Positions 15,808 to 39,915 of a stretch of DNA of 56,224 nt are shown in pieces. Both the position numbers and the translations under genes were made by a program. Under the pieces are notes generated by a model. It was not told where the DNA came from. It saw only the letters and a program-made list of their open reading frames with translations, and did not search any database. The stretch lies in NCBI GenBank assembly GCA_021463195.1, contig JAJTXZ010000025.1, positions 1 to 56,224 on the forward strand. Direction: 5' to 3'. Source of the stretch: Anaerolineae bacterium. GTDB taxonomy: Bacteria; Chloroflexota; Anaerolineae; UBA4142; SHND01. How positions within the stretch are numbered: the stretch's first letter is position 1; each line of letters begins with the position of its first letter.

Positions 15808-17088
15808 TTAGCGGGCTGCTTGCGGATTGTCGGCTGGCGACGCGGGTAAACCCCACGCTAACCACGCGCCGATGCTTGCGGTGAAAAAGGTGATTAGAAA
15901 AAGCGGCGTAAAACCAAAGAGGTCCAACAAGGCGCCGCCAATAACCGGAATAAAGGTAGCCACGCCCAACACCGTATTGGTAAAACCAATATACAACGTG
16001 CGCTCTTGCGGCGGCGCGAGATTCAACAAATAGGTCGGGAACGCGATATTCGCGGCGGTGCGCCCAATGCCGAATATAAAAAAAATGACGCCGAACGCGA
16101 CAGCAACCGTCTCGTCTTGTCCAAACAAACCGAACGATAACGCTAAAAGCGGAATCAATGGCGGAAGACTGGCTGCCAACAGTAACGCCCAGCGCAACTT
16201 GTGACGGTCGCTCAAATACGACAAGATCGGCGTCGTCAATAACGCGCTCAATGTCGTCAACCCGATGTACAAACCCACAATCGCCGCCGGCGCGCCCAAA
16301 TGGCGTGTCGCATAAATGGCGTAAAACGGCGTCGCCAAATCGCCCACCGCCAACATGACGCGCGTTGCCAGGTACCGCCGATAATCCCGATTCTGTCGCA
16401 CGATGCCGCGCGCCGCGCGCACCTGTTGTCCAAAAGTGATGCCTTCGCCCGTCGCTTCTTCGCGCGGCTCGCGCACCAATGTAAACAAAACCAATCCTGC
16501 GCCGATGGCGCCGAATGCCACCGTGAACAGTAGCGTAAAGTTTTGCGGAAACGTCAAGCCGCGTTCGGGACTCAACGCGACGGCGACCAAATAGCCCGCC
16601 AGCAAGCCCATCGCCGTTCCCGAAAATTCGCGCCAGCCAAAAAATGAACCGCGCCGCGGCATCGGAATCACTTTGGCGACGATTGCCATAAATGGATTGC
16701 CCGCCACGCCCGCCGCGAGCGAATAAAGAATCATCAGCGCGAAAAAAATCGCGAGCAACAGCGTCGGATTCGACGCGCCGAGTAGCCAAGTCGCGGGCAA
16801 AATAAAAAACCAGCTCACGATACGCACCGCCGCCGCGCCCGTGTACACCGGTTTCTTGAATGGCAGCGGTTGCAAACGATGCGAAATCAAAAATTGCGGA
16901 ATGAACCAGCCGCCGTTATAAATCGCCGCCATCAAGCCGACGAGCAAACTGGACCCGCCGAGCTGCGTAATAAACACCGCAAGCGTCAGCGTCGGCGCAA
17001 TCAACGCGTCCACGAAACCAAAAATCGCGCCATTGAGAATGCCAATCGTATAATTGTGACGCAGATGTTTTTCAACAAAATAAGACAT
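15808..17088 (-). CDS. Major facilitator superfamily transporter
   Basis: The 426-aa protein has about twelve hydrophobic segments in two halves. MFS-like features include GGSSLLVGLMAAIYNGGWFIPQF in the first half and the loop motif YLSDRHKLRWALLL before a later helix. An internal cytoplasmic loop (VREPREEATGEGITFGQQVRA) divides the halves. Substrate cannot be inferred. The ATG at 17086-17088 starts a plausible N-terminus (MSYFVEKHLRHNYTIGILNG). Upstream is a non-coding region with the second copy of the 100-bp repeat. Confidence 0.85.
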   Translation of the reverse strand: MSYFVEKHLRHNYTIGILNGAIFGFVDALIAPTLTLAVFITQLGGSSLLVGLMAAIYNGGWFIPQFLISHRLQPLPFKKPVYTGAAAVRIVSWFFILPATWLLGASNPTLLLAIFFALMILYSLAAGVAGNPFMAIVAKVIPMPRRGSFFGWREFSGTAMGLLAGYLVAVALSPERGLTFPQNFTLLFTVAFGAIGAGLVLFTLVREPREEATGEGITFGQQVRAARGIVRQNRDYRRYLATRVMLAVGDLATPFYAIYATRHLGAPAAIVGLYIGLTTLSALLTTPILSYLSDRHKLRWALLLAASLPPLIPLLALSFGLFGQDETVAVAFGVIFFIFGIGRTAANIAFPTYLLNLAPPQERTLYIGFTNTVLGVATFIPVIGGALLDLFGFTPLFLITFFTASIGAWLAWGLPASPADNPQAAR

Positions 17089-17553
17089 AGCGTTTGAATG
17101 AACGCCGCAAGTTCAAGCTTGAGCAACTTGGATTTTGCGGCGCGCGGCTTGTCATTATAAGCGGATATGCGCGCGGAGCAAGAGACGCACGCGCCTTGAG
17201 TGAACTATCCGCCTGAATTGGGGTGTGCGTCACGTTTTTGGGCGAATCGAATTCGCGCGCAACAAATACACGAAACGTCCCTGCGGACGTTCGCGCTGGG
17301 CTGCGATTGCGAATGTTCTTGATTCGCCGCAGACTTGCGTTCTAGTTGCCGCGCTTTCCAAGCGCTTGATGTGATTCCCAAAATTTTGACGCGCACCCTC
17401 TGAATTTCGCCGCGTTGCAAGCAGAATTGAAAGCGTATACAATCTTGTACACGTTCGCGCCTGCGCCGCGTATTTTTTCGCAAGCGCGTGCGTGACGCAG
17501 AACTTATCGCGCGCCGCGTTCTGGCAAGACGCGCCGCGCGGCAGAGGCACCGC
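17089..17553. other. Intergenic region with divergent gene starts and a repeat
   Basis: About 465 bp lie between the divergently oriented MFS transporter and ABC permease. The region holds the second ~100-bp repeat copy and probably both promoters. I see no gene with convincing codon use here. Short open frames exist only because GC-rich DNA has few stops. Confidence 0.6.
17260..17359. repeat. Dispersed ~100-bp repeat, copy 2
   Basis: Near-identical to bases 1-99, same orientation, about four substitutions. It includes the hairpin AACGTCC-CTGC-GGACGTT and the shared stretch GATTCGCCGCAGACTTGCG. Similarity ends abruptly after the CGCGCTTTC segment. Confidence 0.8.
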
Positions 17554-18576
17554 GTGATAACTCGAGACCAAGCACGCTCCGCTATTTCGCAAGGACCTGA
17601 CGCGCGTGAACCTTTATTGCGCGCGCCTCGTTCGCGCGCGCAATGGTTTGCCTACTTGTATATTCTGCCCGCGTTTCTCATCATCAGCGTTTTTCACATT
17701 CTGCCCGTCGGATACGCGGTTTGGATTAGTTTGCAATCCGGCGTGGTGCGGCGTTTTCAATTCACCGGTCTAGACAATTACATCCGCGCGTTGAACGCGC
17801 CCGAATTTTGGAGCGCGCTGCAAACGACGATTTTTTATACGCTCGGCACGGTGCCAATCACAATGGCGCTCGGCTTGGGCATCGCCTATTTGCTCTTTCA
17901 AAAAATTCGCGGGCGCGGCATTTATCGCGCCATCTATTTCATGCCGTACATCATTTCCACCGTCGCGTCGGCGATTGTGTGGGCGTGGGTGTTTGACCCG
18001 CGCACAGGTCTCGCCAATTATGCGCTCGCGCTTTTCGGTCTTCCCGCGCAACAGTGGTTGATTGAACCCACCGGCATTTTCAAATTAATCGGCGAGGGTT
18101 TGCATTTCAGCGTGCCGGGATGGGCGGAGGGCCCAAGTCTCGCGCTCGTGGGCATCATGATTTTCGCGGTATGGCAGGTGATCGGTTTCGACATCGTGAT
18201 TTTTCTCGCGGGTCTCGGCAACATCAACAGCGAATTGTACGAAGCCGCGCGGATTGACGGCGCGACGGGCTGGCAGGTGTTTCGGCACATTACGCTGCCG
18301 CTGCTCGCGCCGACGACCTTTTTTATTCTGGTCATTTCGTTAATCTTTTCCTTGCAAGCGTTCAATCACATTTACGCGATGAATCGTTCCGCCGCCCAGC
18401 AGTTGGGCGGGCCGCTCGGCTCAACGCGCACGCTGTCAATCTATATGTTTCAGGCGCTATATGAACAAAATCGCGCGGGGTACGCCAGCGCGATTGCGGT
18501 GCTGTTATCGCTCATGATTTTGGGATTGACGTTCATCCAATTTCGCTTTCTCGGCAAGCGCAGCGAGAACGCGTAA
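17554..18576 (+). CDS. ABC sugar transporter permease (MalF/UgpA-like)
   Basis: This is an inner-membrane permease of a carbohydrate-type ABC importer. Six hydrophobic segments begin at YLYILPAFLIISVFHILPVG, and the ATPase-docking EAA loop reads EAARIDGATGWQVFRHITLP. The GTG at 17554 is chosen because AGAGG lies 6 nt upstream. A GTG at 17488 would add 22 Arg-rich residues that look non-coding. The second permease follows 11 bp after the stop and the binding protein after that, a standard permease-permease-binding protein order. No ATPase gene is nearby, so a shared MsiK-like ATPase is probable. Substrate is unknown. Confidence 0.9.
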   Translation: MITRDQARSAISQGPDAREPLLRAPRSRAQWFAYLYILPAFLIISVFHILPVGYAVWISLQSGVVRRFQFTGLDNYIRALNAPEFWSALQTTIFYTLGTVPITMALGLGIAYLLFQKIRGRGIYRAIYFMPYIISTVASAIVWAWVFDPRTGLANYALALFGLPAQQWLIEPTGIFKLIGEGLHFSVPGWAEGPSLALVGIMIFAVWQVIGFDIVIFLAGLGNINSELYEAARIDGATGWQVFRHITLPLLAPTTFFILVISLIFSLQAFNHIYAMNRSAAQQLGGPLGSTRTLSIYMFQALYEQNRAGYASAIAVLLSLMILGLTFIQFRFLGKRSENA

Positions 18577-27049: not shown

Positions 27050-27447
27050 AAAATTTCCAAGACCGAGTGGTGTGGCTCACCGGCGCGTCGTCCGGCATCG
27101 GCGAAGGCGTCGCGTACGCGCTGGCGCAGCAAGGCGCGAAACTGATTTTGTCCGCGCGCCGCGTCGAGGAATTGGAACGCGTCAAAAGAAATTGCGCGGG
27201 CGCTCCATCACACATTGCCATTCTGCCGCTCGATGTTGCCGCTTTGCAAGCCGCGCCGGAAAAAGCAAAACAAGCGCACGCGTTGTTTGGACGCATTGAT
27301 GTTCTCATCAATAACGCGGGCGTTGGTTTTCGCGGCTATGTAAAGGATACGGAGCTTGCGACGCAACAACGCGTGATGCAAGTAAATTATTTTGGGCCTG
27401 TCGCGTTGACGAAAGCGAGCAAATCACCGCATAATTATTTTTGCTGA
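27046..27447 (+). pseudogene. Short-chain dehydrogenase, 5' half (disrupted by insertion)
   Basis: The frame encodes the N-terminal half of a classical SDR: cofactor motif TGASSGIGEG, SARR after strand 2, and structural NNAG in VLINNAGVGFRGYV. The GTG at 27046 overlaps the TGA of the exporter (GTGA), indicating translational coupling; ATG 27031 is an alternative. Native sequence ends at the 10-bp core ACGAAAGCGA (27409-27418). Beyond it the frame runs about nine codons into the mobile element and stops. The missing catalytic half lies at 39475-39915. Joining the two at the core gives an in-frame 267-aa SDR. The half-protein lacks Tyr-Lys and cannot be active. Confidence 0.93.
27409..27418. 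other. attL core
   Basis: This 10-bp ACGAAAGCGA is the left junction. It encodes Thr-Lys-Ala of the host dehydrogenase, the same three codons needed to join the 3' half. Confidence 0.88.
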
Positions 27448-27488
27448 AACGTTAACTATTCCCACACGCATCAACGCAGTTAACTTTG

Positions 27489-27528
27489 TCATGCCGCGCC
27501 AAACATTCATGGCGGCATGATTTTTTTT
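27489..27528 (+). terminator. Rho-independent terminator at the left end of the element
   Basis: TCATGCCGC pairs with GCGGCATGA (14-nt loop), followed by eight Ts. In the integrated state it would stop transcription entering from the host operon. In the excised circle it would lie just after the serine recombinase gene, whose extended frame ends with the TGA in this hairpin. Confidence 0.85.
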
Positions 27529-27573: not shown

Positions 27574-28602
27574 ATGAACACACCAACCGAACTTGCCGCG
27601 CTTGCGGCAACCGAACCGACCAACGCGCGCGCGTTGATTATTCCGAACGCCGCGCGCGTTCCGCTTGACCAAAACGCGGCGGCGGTCTATCTCGCGTCTC
27701 TTGCATTTGGCAGTCGGCGCACCATGCGCGACGCGCTGAATACTATCGCGGCAATGCTCACGAACGGCGACGCCGACGCGCTAACCTTGAATTGGACTGC
27801 GCTGCGCTTTCAACACACTGCGGCGATTCGCGCGAAACTCGCGCAAGAGTATAGCGCGGCGACCGCGAATAAAATGCTATCGGCTTTGCGCGGTGTTCTC
27901 AAAACGAGTTGGCGGCTTGGGCAAATGAGCGCGGACGATTACGCGCGCGCGGCGGATGTTCAAAGCGTGCATGGCGCGACGTTACCACGCGGGCGCGCGC
28001 TTTCAAGCGGCGAAATTGACGCGCTTATGACCGCGTGCGCGAACGATGCGAGCGCGGCGGGCGCGCGGGATGCGGCGATTATTGCGCTGTTGCGCGTGGG
28101 CGGGCTGCGGCGCGCGGAAATCTGCGCGTTGAACTTTGACGATTACGACGCCGAGACGGGCGCGTTAACGATTCGCGGCAAACGCAACAAGGAACGCGCG
28201 GGCTATGTGGCGAACGGGGCAAAGGACGCGTTAGAGGATTGGCTGATTTTGCGCGGGAATGAAACAGGCGCGCTGTTTTGCCCTATCTCGAAAGGCGGAA
28301 CAATCATTCTACGGCGGATGTATCCCGAAGCGATTTTTAATCTGTTGTGCAAACGCGCGGCGCAGGCGGGCGTCAAGAATCTTTCACCACATGATTTTAG
28401 GCGGACGTTTGTTAGCGATTTACTTGACGCGGGCGCGGATATTGCGACTGTGCAACGCCTCGCGGGACATGCGAACGTGCAAACCACCGCGCGTTATGAC
28501 CGACGCGGCGAGCAAGCGAAACGGAAAGCGATTGCGTTATTGCATGTTCCGTATCGCAAACGCGCCGCGTCCATTGTTGAAATGCGCGGCGAAACGCGAT
28601 AA
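27574..28602 (+). CDS. Tyrosine recombinase / phage-type integrase
   Basis: The 342-aa protein has a SAM-like core-binding N-terminal domain and a catalytic domain with the expected residues: Arg in RVGGLRRAEICALN, His-x-x-Arg in SPHDFRRTFVSDLL, His in LAGHANVQTTARYDRR and the nucleophilic Tyr in that same block. A Lys in the beta-hairpin (RGKRNKERAGYV) is also present. ATG 27574 follows GGTGAG; the frame upstream is non-coding. Because the element ends look like serine-integrase sites, this enzyme may resolve multimers or integrate elsewhere. A terminator follows the gene. Confidence 0.93.
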   Translation: MNTPTELAALAATEPTNARALIIPNAARVPLDQNAAAVYLASLAFGSRRTMRDALNTIAAMLTNGDADALTLNWTALRFQHTAAIRAKLAQEYSAATANKMLSALRGVLKTSWRLGQMSADDYARAADVQSVHGATLPRGRALSSGEIDALMTACANDASAAGARDAAIIALLRVGGLRRAEICALNFDDYDAETGALTIRGKRNKERAGYVANGAKDALEDWLILRGNETGALFCPISKGGTIILRRMYPEAIFNLLCKRAAQAGVKNLSPHDFRRTFVSDLLDAGADIATVQRLAGHANVQTTARYDRRGEQAKRKAIALLHVPYRKRAASIVEMRGETR

Positions 28603-30283: not shown

Positions 30284-30639
30284 AAACGCAATCGCTGAAA
30301 CGCGTCCCGATTCGCGCAAACTCAAAAATAATCGGCGAAGTGTGCGGCGAGACGTTTTACAAAAATGTTCTTGGGTCCAAACATTTTTTACGCGTTCCGC
30401 GTGCCATCGCCTTTGACGTTTCAAGTTTGAATGACGCCGAAAATGCCGACGCGCGCTTTGTGCAAGTAACAGACGCCGAAACATCGCGCGTTTATCGCGC
30501 AAGCATCGCGACGATTCGCGCAAAAGGTTTTCGCGTCGCGCGCGGCTTTGGTGAGCAAATTGCACTCGCGCTTGAGTTTTGGAATCGCGACGCCGAACCG
30601 CTTGTGACGCAGTTAAATTTTTTGGAGCGCGTGACGTGA
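30280..30639 (+). CDS. Hypothetical protein upstream of helicase
   Basis: The 119-aa frame starts with an ATGA overlap and ends in a TGATG overlap with the helicase gene, so all are probably translated together. The mixed alpha/beta sequence includes GEVCGETFYKNVLGSKHFLRV and FVQVTDAETSRVYRASIATI. It has no membrane segment. Similar small genes ahead of primase-helicases are common in integrative elements, but I do not recognise the family. Confidence 0.65.
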   Translation: MKTQSLKRVPIRANSKIIGEVCGETFYKNVLGSKHFLRVPRAIAFDVSSLNDAENADARFVQVTDAETSRVYRASIATIRAKGFRVARGFGEQIALALEFWNRDAEPLVTQLNFLERVT

Positions 30640-32723
30640 TGATTCTTGAAAACGTGAACACCATGCGCGCCCAAGACGCAATCGAGACGCTGACAGACGC
30701 CGAGCAAACCGCGTTAGACGAACTCGCGCGCAAACTGCGAACTCTCGCGGCGGGGGATGTTCTCGTCGAAATGGAATACCACGACGCCGAGTTAGCAAGG
30801 TGGGGCGAGTGGCTAGCGGAATCGCTTGACGATGAAACGCGCGACTTTGCCGCGTATGCTGTGAGCGACCATCGGCGGCGGCGCGAAGTGTGCGGGCGTG
30901 AACTCTCACGACGCAATCACGCGGACAGGTTGCCAAGCGGCGGCGCGCGTTCGCGCATCACACGCGAATTGATTGACGAAGTTAAAACGCGCGTTGACTT
31001 GGTGGAACTCATGCAAGCGCGCGGCGTGGAATTAAAAACGCGCGGCGATAAAGCGCAAGGGCGCTGTCCGTTTCACGCAGACAAAACGCCGTCTTTGTCT
31101 GTGGACAACGCGCGCGGGCTGTGGCATTGTTTTGGCTGCAACGCGGGCGGCGATGCGATTCGATTCGTGATGCAATGCGACAACGTTGAGTTTATGCCCG
31201 CGCTGCAAATTCTCGCCGAACGCGCGGACGTGGAATTACCGACGACGCGTGCGCCCAGGCGCGCGACGCCAACCGACGCGCCGAAAACCGACGCGCCGTA
31301 TTTGTCTTTTGACGAAATTCTTGCCGCGTTCGCGCGCGCCGAGACGGGCGACGCGGAATTGTTAGCGCGTTTGTTCGCCGACAAAATTTGTTTTGACCAT
31401 GCCGAAAGCGCTTGGTATTTGTTCAATCAACACTCTTGGACGCGCGACGAAACGGGCAAGGTTGAAAAATTCGTGACCGATGAAATTGCGGCGCAATACC
31501 TCTTTGCGAGCGCCGAACGCAAACGCCAAAATGGAGAGGACGCGGACAAGCAAATCAAAGAACTTTACGCGCGCGCGAACTCTTTGCGGAATCGCAACAA
31601 AATCGCGAATGTCCTTGACCGCGCGCGCAAACAAGACGCGCTGGCGTTACGCGGCAACGAATGGGACAACGATTCGATGCTACTTGGCTGCGCGAATGGC
31701 GTGTTGGATTTACGCTATCGCGATTTTGAATTTCGCGACGGCGCGCCGCGCGATTACATTCGCACAATCGCGCCGACGGAATGGCAAGACCTACACGCGC
31801 CCGCGCCGCGCTGGGAAAAATTCTTGCAAGAGATTTTCGCGGGAGATGCTGACCTAATCGCGTTCATTCAACGTTGGTTTGGTTACTGTCTGACCGCCGA
31901 TGTTTCCGAAAACGCGTTCGTGGTGTTGCATGGCGAAGACGGCCGCAACGGCAAGCGCATCTTGACCGAAACGATTGCGCGCGCGCTGGGCAGTTACGCG
32001 ACGGCGGGCGAGGATGATTTATTTTTGGACGCCAAAGACCAACGCGCGGGCGCACCCAAGCAATTTTTGGTTGACCTTGCGGCGCGGCGGCTGGTCTTGC
32101 TTTCCGAGACGCGCGAGGGCGCGCGTTTCAATCTCGCGCGCATTAAACAACTCGCGGGTGGAGACACGATTAAAGCGCGCGGAATGTTCGCCGCGCGCGG
32201 CGTGGAAATCGCGCCGACTTGGAAATTCGTTCTCTCTACGAATCGGCTGCCGCACGCCGACGCCGACGACGCGGCATTTTACGAGCGCGTTTTTATCGTG
32301 AAATTGACACAGCGATTCGTCACGCGACCCGACCCGACGGACCCGAATGAGCATCCGCGCGACCCGAAACTCGCCGAGACGCTGCGCGGCGAGCAAGGCG
32401 GGATTCTGGCTTGGCTTGTGCGCGGCTGTCTGGAATGGCAACGCGCGGGTTTGAATCCGCCCGATAGCGTGCGGCTGGCGACGCAGGAATACCGCGCGGG
32501 CGAAGATACGTTAACGCAATTTATCGCAGCGTGTTGCGTTGTGAATCCGAACGCTGTAACGCGCGCAAATGAACTGTATGCCGCATATCGCAAATGGGCG
32601 GACGAAAACGGACTCGGCGCAATGAGCGGAATGGCGTTCGCGAAACGCATGGCGAAGCGATTCGCGAAAAGGCGCACAGAGCGCGGTAATGTCTATGTTG
32701 GCATCGGTTTATTGAACCTGTAG
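30639..32723 (+). CDS. CHC2 zinc finger fused to D5/SF3 replication helicase
   Basis: The 694-aa protein likely initiates and unwinds the element's own replication. Residues ~105-185 are a DnaG-type CHC2 zinc finger: LIDEVKTRVDLVELMQARGV, CPFHADKTPSLSV, then LWHCFGCNAGGDAIRFVM. From ~360 a D5_N-like region follows (LLGCANGVLDLR). The SF3 helicase has Walker A GEDGRNGKRIL (~431), a Walker B region RRLVLLSETREG (~485) and sensor motif FVLSTNRLP. A C-terminal D5-type winged helix ends the protein. I see no TOPRIM or archaeo-eukaryotic primase catalytic residues between finger and helicase. The ATG overlaps the upstream stop (TGATG). Confidence 0.9.
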   Translation: MILENVNTMRAQDAIETLTDAEQTALDELARKLRTLAAGDVLVEMEYHDAELARWGEWLAESLDDETRDFAAYAVSDHRRRREVCGRELSRRNHADRLPSGGARSRITRELIDEVKTRVDLVELMQARGVELKTRGDKAQGRCPFHADKTPSLSVDNARGLWHCFGCNAGGDAIRFVMQCDNVEFMPALQILAERADVELPTTRAPRRATPTDAPKTDAPYLSFDEILAAFARAETGDAELLARLFADKICFDHAESAWYLFNQHSWTRDETGKVEKFVTDEIAAQYLFASAERKRQNGEDADKQIKELYARANSLRNRNKIANVLDRARKQDALALRGNEWDNDSMLLGCANGVLDLRYRDFEFRDGAPRDYIRTIAPTEWQDLHAPAPRWEKFLQEIFAGDADLIAFIQRWFGYCLTADVSENAFVVLHGEDGRNGKRILTETIARALGSYATAGEDDLFLDAKDQRAGAPKQFLVDLAARRLVLLSETREGARFNLARIKQLAGGDTIKARGMFAARGVEIAPTWKFVLSTNRLPHADADDAAFYERVFIVKLTQRFVTRPDPTDPNEHPRDPKLAETLRGEQGGILAWLVRGCLEWQRAGLNPPDSVRLATQEYRAGEDTLTQFIAACCVVNPNAVTRANELYAAYRKWADENGLGAMSGMAFAKRMAKRFAKRRTERGNVYVGIGLLNL

Positions 32724-35669: not shown

Positions 35670-35879
35670 ATGGCGAAACAAGACGATTGGATTACGACGA
35701 AAGAGGCGAGCGAATTGACGGGATACACACCAGACTATATCCGCGACTTGGCTGCTCTTGGCAAGATTCAAGCGCGCAAGATTGCGACGATATGGCTGGT
35801 GAGTAAAAAAAGTCTATTGGCGCACAAGCGCGCGGCGGACAAATTAGGTGAAAAAAGAGGGCGGAAATCTGGTAGTTGA
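35670..35879 (+). CDS. Excisionase-like HTH protein
   Basis: The 69-aa protein is a compact winged helix of the MerR/excisionase type: WITTKEASELTGYTPDYIRD, then LAALGKIQARKIATIWLVSKKSL. Such proteins recognise DNA bends and act as recombination directionality factors or small regulators. TAGGAG lies about 12 nt upstream of the ATG. Its own promoter and position between the cassette and the serine recombinase suit control of excision, though directionality factors of serine integrases are diverse and this role is inferred. Confidence 0.78.
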   Translation: MAKQDDWITTKEASELTGYTPDYIRDLAALGKIQARKIATIWLVSKKSLLAHKRAADKLGEKRGRKSGS

Positions 35880-37927: not shown

Positions 37928-39499
37928 ATGAAACGGGCTATCATTTACGCACGCGTAAGCACAGACGACCAAGCGCAAAACGGGTATAGTCTTTCAACAC
38001 AGTTAGAAGCAATGCGAATTTATGCCGAAGCGAACGGCATAAAAGTTGTGCGCGAACTCCAAGACGATTGCAGCGGCGCGAAACTTGACCGACCCGCGCT
38101 AGACACTTTGCGCGCGATGCTGGAACGCAAAGAGGCGGACGCGGTAATAGTGTATGCGGCGGACAGACTTAGCCGCAATCTCGCGCACCTTTTAATTTTG
38201 CGCGAGGAATTCAACCGCGCGGGCGTCGAATTGCATTACGCCAATCGCGGGAAATCGCAAGACACGGCGGAAAGTCGTCTATTAGAAAACGTGGAGGGCG
38301 TGATAGCGGAATTCGAGCGCGAGAAAATCAAAGAGCGCACGCGGCGCGGCAAATTCGCCAAAATCAAAGCGGGAAAATGGATTGGTAACGGCACTGCGCC
38401 GTATCCTTTTCGTCAAATTGGAAAAGGCGCGGACGCGCGGCTAGAGATTGACCAAGAACAGGCGGCGATTGTGCGGCGCATTGTGGACATGCTGTTAGGG
38501 CAAAACGGCTATATGCCTGTTGGTATAAATTCGATTGCGCGGCAATTAACGGCGGAGGGTGTCCCAACCGCAAACAAGGCGCGCGGCTGGCGGACGTGTT
38601 TTTTGCGCGGTTTGCTCTCTAACAAAGAATTGCTTGGTATTTTTGAGCGAATGGGCATTCTAGTCGAATTGCCTGACCTCGCCATTCTTGACCGCGAAAC
38701 GTTTGACCGCGCGCAAGACGTGTTAAAGCATAATCGCCTTGCAAGCATGCGCGCGCGGTCATATCCCTATGTGTTTAGCGGTTTTGCAAGATGCGTTTGC
38801 GGGAGACTGTTATGCGGCACGCAAATTGGCAAAAAGGAAAGCGGCGATTATCATTATTATATGTGCGGCGCGCGCATACATGACCGACATTTAACAGACT
38901 GCAAAGAGGGCAGCATTAACGTCAAAATTTTCGAGCCGCTTGTATGGAATTGGCTTATCGAATTGTTGACCGATAGCGCCAAATTAGAAAAGGGTATCTA
39001 CAAGTATTTTGAAAGCCGCGAAAGTGAATTGAGCAAAACGCGCGAGCGGCGCGCCCTAACATTAGATTTGATGCGCCGCGCCGATAGGAAAATGCAAAAC
39101 CTTTCGGCAGATTTAAGCGAGATGGAAAGCCGCGCGGGACGTGCGGCATTGCGCGCGGACATTGACCGCTTAGGGAAAGAAAAAGACGCGCTTTCGGCTG
39201 CGCTTGTCGAAATAGATGCGCTTTTAGCGCGCCGCGAAGTAACAGACACTGATATAGCAACGATTCGAGCAACCGCGCGGGACATTCGCGCCAAGTTAGA
39301 GAGAAAACCCACCTACGAGCAATCCCGCGCCCTTTTCGCTGTGCTTGACTTGAAAATAAAACTACGGCATAACGAGAACGGACGTGAATTGTTTGTAACG
39401 TGCGGTTTGGCATTAGACGGACAAACACTTGCGATTAAGCCGCGCTTAAATTATGTGGTAGAAAAAGAGGATTCACGAAAGCGACACTGCCGTATATGA
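37928..39499 (+). CDS. Large serine recombinase (integrase of the element)
   Basis: The 523-aa enzyme has a resolvase domain with nucleophile Ser in YARVSTDDQ and conserved DRLSRN and EREKIKERTRRGK. A recombinase domain (NGTAPYPFRQIG onward) and a zinc ribbon (RCVCGRLLCGTQ and YYMCG..C) follow, then a coiled coil (~360-450). This is the likely integrase/excisionase of the island. Its last codons cross the attR core: residues through Arg519 are element-encoded and the final four come from the host gene. In the excised circle the frame would instead continue 33 codons into the left end and stop inside the terminator hairpin there. Confidence 0.95.
   Translation: MKRAIIYARVSTDDQAQNGYSLSTQLEAMRIYAEANGIKVVRELQDDCSGAKLDRPALDTLRAMLERKEADAVIVYAADRLSRNLAHLLILREEFNRAGVELHYANRGKSQDTAESRLLENVEGVIAEFEREKIKERTRRGKFAKIKAGKWIGNGTAPYPFRQIGKGADARLEIDQEQAAIVRRIVDMLLGQNGYMPVGINSIARQLTAEGVPTANKARGWRTCFLRGLLSNKELLGIFERMGILVELPDLAILDRETFDRAQDVLKHNRLASMRARSYPYVFSGFARCVCGRLLCGTQIGKKESGDYHYYMCGARIHDRHLTDCKEGSINVKIFEPLVWNWLIELLTDSAKLEKGIYKYFESRESELSKTRERRALTLDLMRRADRKMQNLSADLSEMESRAGRAALRADIDRLGKEKDALSAALVEIDALLARREVTDTDIATIRATARDIRAKLERKPTYEQSRALFAVLDLKIKLRHNENGRELFVTCGLALDGQTLAIKPRLNYVVEKEDSRKRHCRI
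39475..39484. other. attR core
   Basis: The second copy of ACGAAAGCGA joins element and host. It lies inside the serine recombinase reading frame. Confidence 0.88.
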
Positions 39500-39915
39500 T
39501 TGAACAGAAAAGCGGACAAATCGTCATCATCAGTTCACTTGCAGGCAAGTTGCCAATTCCCGGACACGCTGCCTACTGCGCGTCGAAACACGCGTTACAC
39601 GGATTTTTTGATTCACTGCGCGCCGAAGTGTATCGTTACGGAATTAAAGTGACGATTATTTGTCCCGGTTTTGTGCAAACGCGTATCTCGGAAAATGCGC
39701 TCTTGCCTGATGGGTCGGTTCGCGGCGGCGTCAGTGATAAAGAACATCGCCGCTCCATGACGATTGAGGCAAGCGCAAAACATATTTTGTACGCGATTCG
39801 CGCGGAAAAACAAGAATATGATTACGGCGGCATAGAAAAATTCGCCGTGCCGATTCGCAAATTTTTTCCGTGGCTTTATTCGCGCGCGCTGCGACGCATG
39901 CCGCTGTCATTCTGA
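39475..39915 (+). pseudogene. Short-chain dehydrogenase, 3' half
   Basis: This is the catalytic half of the interrupted SDR, starting at the attR core: TLPYMIEQKSGQIVIISSLA supplies the catalytic Ser, and YCASKHALHGFF holds Tyr and Lys. FPWLYSRALRRMPLSF ends the protein. An internal ATG at 39496 could start translation but the product would lack the cofactor-binding fold. Bases 27046-27418 plus 39485-39915 total 804, exactly 268 codons with the stop. Confidence 0.92.

Follow-up and report, generated by a model that had tools for sequence, protein, structure and literature searches.

The large serine recombinase (LSR) of a mobile element in the window (the whole stretch of DNA analysed, 56,224 nucleotides) probably takes its C-terminus from whatever DNA adjoins it. 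In the reading that we favour, to which we give a probability of roughly 0.7, the attachment site (attP) and the 3′ end of the integrase gene overlap past the essential fold, and a stop codon is borrowed in each state. The element would have been integrated by its own LSR, whose gene would meet the attachment site just beyond the codons for the last folded segment and reach the crossover without a stop codon; the stop would come from host DNA when the element is integrated (523 aa), and from the left end of the element, together with a terminator, in the circle (552 aa).

At the level of sequence comparison, the analysis establishes the two-tail anatomy and shows that the layout recurs among related LSRs, at a range of unrelated host genes. 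The circle itself presumably forms, both tails would be tolerated and largely neutral, and the placement of the attachment site would keep the integrase beside its site. The recurrence suggests that the change of tail is a common by-product of this layout, not a proven on/off switch.

The element and its attachment cores

The element is 12,066 bp long, lies inside a short-chain dehydrogenase (SDR) gene, and is bounded by two copies of ACGAAAGCGA. Exact matches to this core occur at only two places in the whole window, namely attL at 27409-27418 and attR at 39475-39484, the latter being traversed by the integrase frame (all window features described here are on the + strand). The 5′ part of the interrupted SDR gene has its homologous portion at 27055-27408, with the start codon further upstream, and the 3′ part is at 39485-39915, as delimited by Pfam and by relatives. 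In-silico removal of the element makes the SDR protein continuous again, and three same-genus genomes have the SDR gene intact (58-76% identity). The 10-bp core and the restoration of the gene are real features, beyond chance.

Other genes of the element include a tyrosine recombinase at its left end (27574-28602; Pfam Phage_integrase), which starts about 155 bp inward of the left core, and a CHC2 zinc finger/D5-type primase-helicase (30579-32723; domain and PHROG matches). A 69-aa HTH_17 protein (35670-35879), which has a counterpart in an element of genome G005, is a candidate excisionase or directionality factor. The element has recombinases of two types, one at each end: tyrosine on the left and serine on the right.

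Identity and predicted fold of the recombinase

The LSR gene, as read when integrated, occupies 37928-39499 and encodes 523 aa. Its three Pfam domains all score above cut-off (Resolvase, residues 4-151; Recombinase, 177-268; Zn_ribbon_recom, 283-342), and the protein is assigned to the PHROG integrase family phrog_95. Residues R9, V10 and S11, which form the R-V-S motif with the catalytic serine, as well as D79, R80 and R83, are invariant across 15 aligned LSRs. The best Foldseek matches for the structural model are the serine integrase-DNA complexes 9dxh and 9iu2 (Bxb1), and 9rah is also matched; overall TM-scores are low (0.24-0.42), presumably owing to differing domain arrangement. Domain order, catalytic motif, and the coiled coil and C-terminal strands predicted in the model identify the protein as a large serine recombinase.

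In the AlphaFold model of the 523-aa form, built from the 15 aligned LSRs, the last strand comprises residues 495-502, order ends at residue 502, and pLDDT is below 50 for residues 507-523. The core covers residues 517-519, within this low-confidence tail, and both alternative tails are predicted to attach to a disordered end, past the last strand. In phiC31 integrase, the 21 residues past the last identified strand were reported to be non-essential, and neither deletion of the tail nor a longer linker to a fused directionality factor changed anything (PMC5737554). By analogy, this suggests that the swapped tail of the window LSR may be equivalent to the non-essential phiC31 tail, an argument for neutrality that is drawn from distant LSRs. 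The analogy with Mx8 would count against neutrality, as a comparable swap there alters integrase behaviour (PMC6070905).

One reading frame, two C-termini

The first-pass annotation of this DNA had proposed that the integrase frame runs through the attR core and ends on four host codons, and the sequence bears this out. Codons 517-519 coincide with the final nine bases of the right core; residues 1-519 of the integrated form are encoded by the element, and the final HCRI and the stop by the host (39485-39499). This stop, TGA, shares bases with an ATG of the SDR remnant that follows (ATGA).

The circle form was inferred by joining the ends of the element in silico. When the right end is joined to the left end at the core, the frame stays open for 33 more codons and closes at a TGA at 27518-27520, giving the 552 aa that had been predicted (circle-form gene end at 27419-27520). 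Its C-terminus reads ...RKR followed by ANHRIIIFAETLTIPTRINAVNFVMPRQTFMAA and the stop, and the right-to-left junction would read GGATTCACGAAAGCGAGCAAATC. Crossover anywhere in the shared 10 bp yields an identical product, the exact dinucleotide being irrelevant to the frame, and on the joined ends the frame is thus kept open to 27520 whatever the crossover point, again as claimed. That the 33 codons are open is unremarkable in itself, because in 22% of first-order Markov simulations of the left end no stop occurs over that length (P ~0.22).

The circle-form stop falls within a terminator-like hairpin at 27489-27528 (fold -15.8 kcal/mol, z -2.9), in which a stem (27489-27497/27512-27520) precedes a run of eight T and has the TGA as its final three bases. 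At the hairpin lies the one site given by a simple terminator scan, compared with 0.8 expected. In the circle the hairpin would stand at the end of the integrase gene, and in the integrated state it stands after the 5′ SDR fragment. That the two forms have different protein tails and different mRNA 3′ contexts, as the annotation had also held, follows from the sequence.

Related recombinases at unrelated host genes

The frames of related LSRs cross into a variety of unrelated genes, including those for globin, LOG, DUF255, IS110 transposase, citrate transporter, ABC transporter, intron reverse transcriptase (RT) and tRNA-Met. Their host-derived tails are unrelated in sequence and range from 0 to ~106 residues. 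The host-break loci were selected for a recognisable broken gene, so that their frequency is a biased estimate and no rate is claimed. Cores of the relatives were located via anchors on conserved host motifs; a core search by joined open frames and codon usage scoring was rejected as too unselective, having missed the known core of the window.

The nearest LSR (64% identical, G005:C213) runs ~43 codons antisense into a globin gene, which has a normal end in its relatives. A second LSR of the same genome (G005:C260, L009:1090-3153) continues in frame into a LOG/lysine-decarboxylase-type domain, as a natural fusion with a 688-aa open frame; the domain is devoid of its first 34 profile positions (Pfam Lysine_decarbox 35-129/131). 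DUF255 genes are broken inside the LSR frame near ...PHFEK in G002, L124, L125 and L127, with ~36-39 host codons. One conserved motif (PHFEK or near) of a DUF255/thioredoxin-domain gene is the site of the LSR elements at L124, L125, L127 and L005.

Further genes broken inside the LSR frame are a citrate transporter, cut at profile position 142/336 (G057), an ABC transporter (ABC_tran), cut at 67/137 (Bin103), a Mg chelatase, with ~3 codons and a core that is ambiguous in the anchor search (L136), and group II intron RTs, with ~14-42 codons (L147, L149 and L150). IS110-type transposase genes are broken in the same manner at L140, L141, L146 and L148; the fragment at L140 has no Pfam match and that at L146 matches below cut-off, and these two assignments are based on a conserved motif and on the rest of the gene at the left end. 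The elements at these four loci are only ~1.95-2 kb long (about 16000-18000, LSR orientation), contain little besides the LSR, and sit at a conserved motif of the transposase gene; their hosts are of the same phylum and have large genomes with numerous LSR candidates.

At other loci the host gene remains complete or nearly so. Mevalonate diphosphate decarboxylase genes are overlapped by the LSR at their start (L121-L123 and L126) and dnaN at its 3′ end (L135, L139, L160, L162 and L165); elsewhere the overlap is with an end of a molybdopterin oxidoreductase gene (G685, G548 and G695) or of a sialidase-like gene (G412). The elements at L121, L122, L123 and L126 appear to give the decarboxylase gene a new start codon, the gene staying complete. 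In G016, G001, L118 and L119 the LSR appears to stop before the start of the host gene.

Genes for tRNA-Met overlap LSR 3′ ends at L024:2528-2604 and L067:11611-11687. According to a database paper of 2014, tRNA genes were known as targets of tyrosine integrases alone (PMC4383910), with which these two overlaps contrast.

For the G005 globin-site element, the genes expected beside its left end were traced to contig G005:C261, which carries no attL; two candidate left ends for the G123 core both failed to restore the host gene. Circular relatives sought among plasmids and phages gave only matches below 60% identity, mostly partial, and no close relative of the window element with both ends was found.

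Circle-form tails in relatives

Both ends could be reconstructed for the elements of G149 and G685, and the integrated and circle frames differ in each of the two. The G149 element (8,211 bp, core ACATCATATT) restores a 571-aa amidohydrolase-like frame on removal; its integrated stop TGA takes one base from the core and the other two from the host, and its circle form adds ~26 codons, ending ...GAAT. The G685 element (14,125 bp, 17-bp core) takes 24 host codons when integrated and 25 codons in the circle, where it ends ...AAGS. In the ~2-kb elements of L146 and L148 the circle adds 71 codons.

Comparison of these circle tails with that of the window element (25, 26, 33 and 71 codons) gave no convincing common sequence. 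A likeness between RIIIFAE in the window tail and RLILFVGE in that of G149 was rejected as too weak and too short. One pair of circle tails, L146 and L148, could be compared for selection: their differences by codon position number 11/8/10, versus 14/7/24 over the final 120 codons of the element-encoded gene body, and the tail has no third-position excess in this single pair with 29 differences. Within the reach of one pair and few differences, there appears to be no sign of protein-level constraint on the circle tails.

Alternative explanations

The first-pass annotation had suggested that the tail could bias the enzyme toward integration or put a limit on excision. The 552-aa and 523-aa forms would then have different activities or directions, much as in Mx8. 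We consider this unlikely. The sequence does give two distinct tails, and the Mx8 int gene likewise spans attP, its integration changing the behaviour of the integrase (PMC6070905). The C-terminus can also reach a regulatory surface, because fusing a directionality factor to the C-terminus of a serine integrase changes its direction (PMC5737554). However, the swap takes place within a predicted disordered tail whose phiC31 counterpart is non-essential, and the host tails of relatives are arbitrary in length and sequence, to the point of an in-frame fusion with a LOG-family domain. The circle tails, moreover, are not convincingly alike, and the one testable pair lacks a coding-type pattern of substitution. 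Tail-driven direction is therefore unsupported. The accompanying proposal, that a separate excision factor is not needed, is weakened by the HTH_17 protein described above, which could act as a separate directionality factor.

A switch in expression with no effect on the protein is a distinctly unlikely account of the whole layout. In this scenario the circle mRNA would end at its own terminator and the integrated mRNA would enter the SDR remnant, with a resulting change in mRNA stability or integrase level. Consistent with this, the strong hairpin with its T8 overlaps the circle-form stop codon, and the integrated stop overlaps the ATG of the SDR remnant instead; yet the hairpin may equally insulate the left genes of the element from a host promoter. 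If there is any regulatory effect, this putative change of mRNA 3′ context is its more plausible seat.

It is very unlikely that the circle tail is a degradation tag, by which the integrase would turn over quickly in the circle but persist in the integrated state. The 552-aa form ends ...FMAA, resembling the ...PLAA of the host ssrA tag (ANTRTNLAALPLAA, read by hand from an Rfam match; ARAGORN gave no call for the host tmRNA), and in BPs, integration removes from the repressor a 33-residue tail that bears an ssrA-like tag (PMC4557955). Against this, the circle tails of G149 and G685 end otherwise, the Ala-Ala codons belong to the terminator stem, and the likeness was noticed after the fact. 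Taken more broadly, a circle tail that serves either as a degradation tag or as an activity modifier, and would hence parallel in a serine integrase the switches of Mx8 and BPs, is improbable.

Finally, it is scarcely credible that the left-end tyrosine recombinase moves the element and that the overlap of the LSR with the core is incidental: its gene does lie close to the left core, but the crossover follows the LSR 3′ end in related elements, those of ~2 kb have little room beyond the LSR, and the nearest relative of the tyrosine recombinase (59%, G005:C13) is away from any element end.

Significance

The useful part of the borrowed-stop layout is its recurrence. In many related LSR genes the stop codon and the final residues are supplied by host DNA, and protein records from integrated elements therefore have host-derived tails; the attP-bearing circle encodes a different form of the LSR from that in such records. 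This has consequences for the annotation of LSRs and for the choice of constructs when LSRs are mined as genome tools. The relatives also provide a natural test of the C-terminal tolerance of LSRs, including one in-frame fusion to a host domain.

Comparison with known systems

The integrase of the Myxococcus phage Mx8 is a tyrosine recombinase. Its gene, like that of Mx9, contains attP, and on integration the gene acquires another 3′ end, and the protein hence another C-terminus (PMC6070905, PMC4383910); integrase frames that span attP are known for Mx8 and SSV (PMC4383910). The frame of the window LSR also crosses the core and its C-terminus would change on integration, the circle being an in-silico construct. 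In Mx8 the change in behaviour was shown experimentally, whereas the window protein is a serine recombinase with a predicted disordered tail, and the comparative evidence leans against a difference in activity between its two forms. The window LSR is thus Mx8-like in anatomy and is not a member of the Mx8 family, because it has serine recombinase domains.

In the mycobacteriophage BPs, it is the coding sequence of the repressor that spans attP, with a form longer by 33 residues in the circular genome (PMC4557955). There, a repressor carries a tested degradation tag, whereas the window element has an integrase and a speculative one. The equal length of 33 residues in the BPs repressor and the window LSR is taken as a coincidence.

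The serine recombinases SPbeta YokA/SprA, Bxb1, phiC31 and A118 share domain order, fold, a short att core and a gene beside the att site with the window LSR. In contrast, no change of stop codon with integration was found described for them in the open-licence papers searched, and the same papers yielded no published serine integrase with an integration-dependent stop codon, which is weak evidence of absence. The LSR catalogue of Durrant et al. (2022), in the parts considered here, reports LSRs within 500 nt of att sites and Mg chelatase genes as frequent targets, as in the L136 element; those parts differ from the present analysis in containing no discussion of integrase frames that cross the core (PMC10083194). 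An attP-spanning layout is known for tyrosine integrases, and the new aspect would seem to be its occurrence with a serine recombinase and, above all, its recurrence among related genes.
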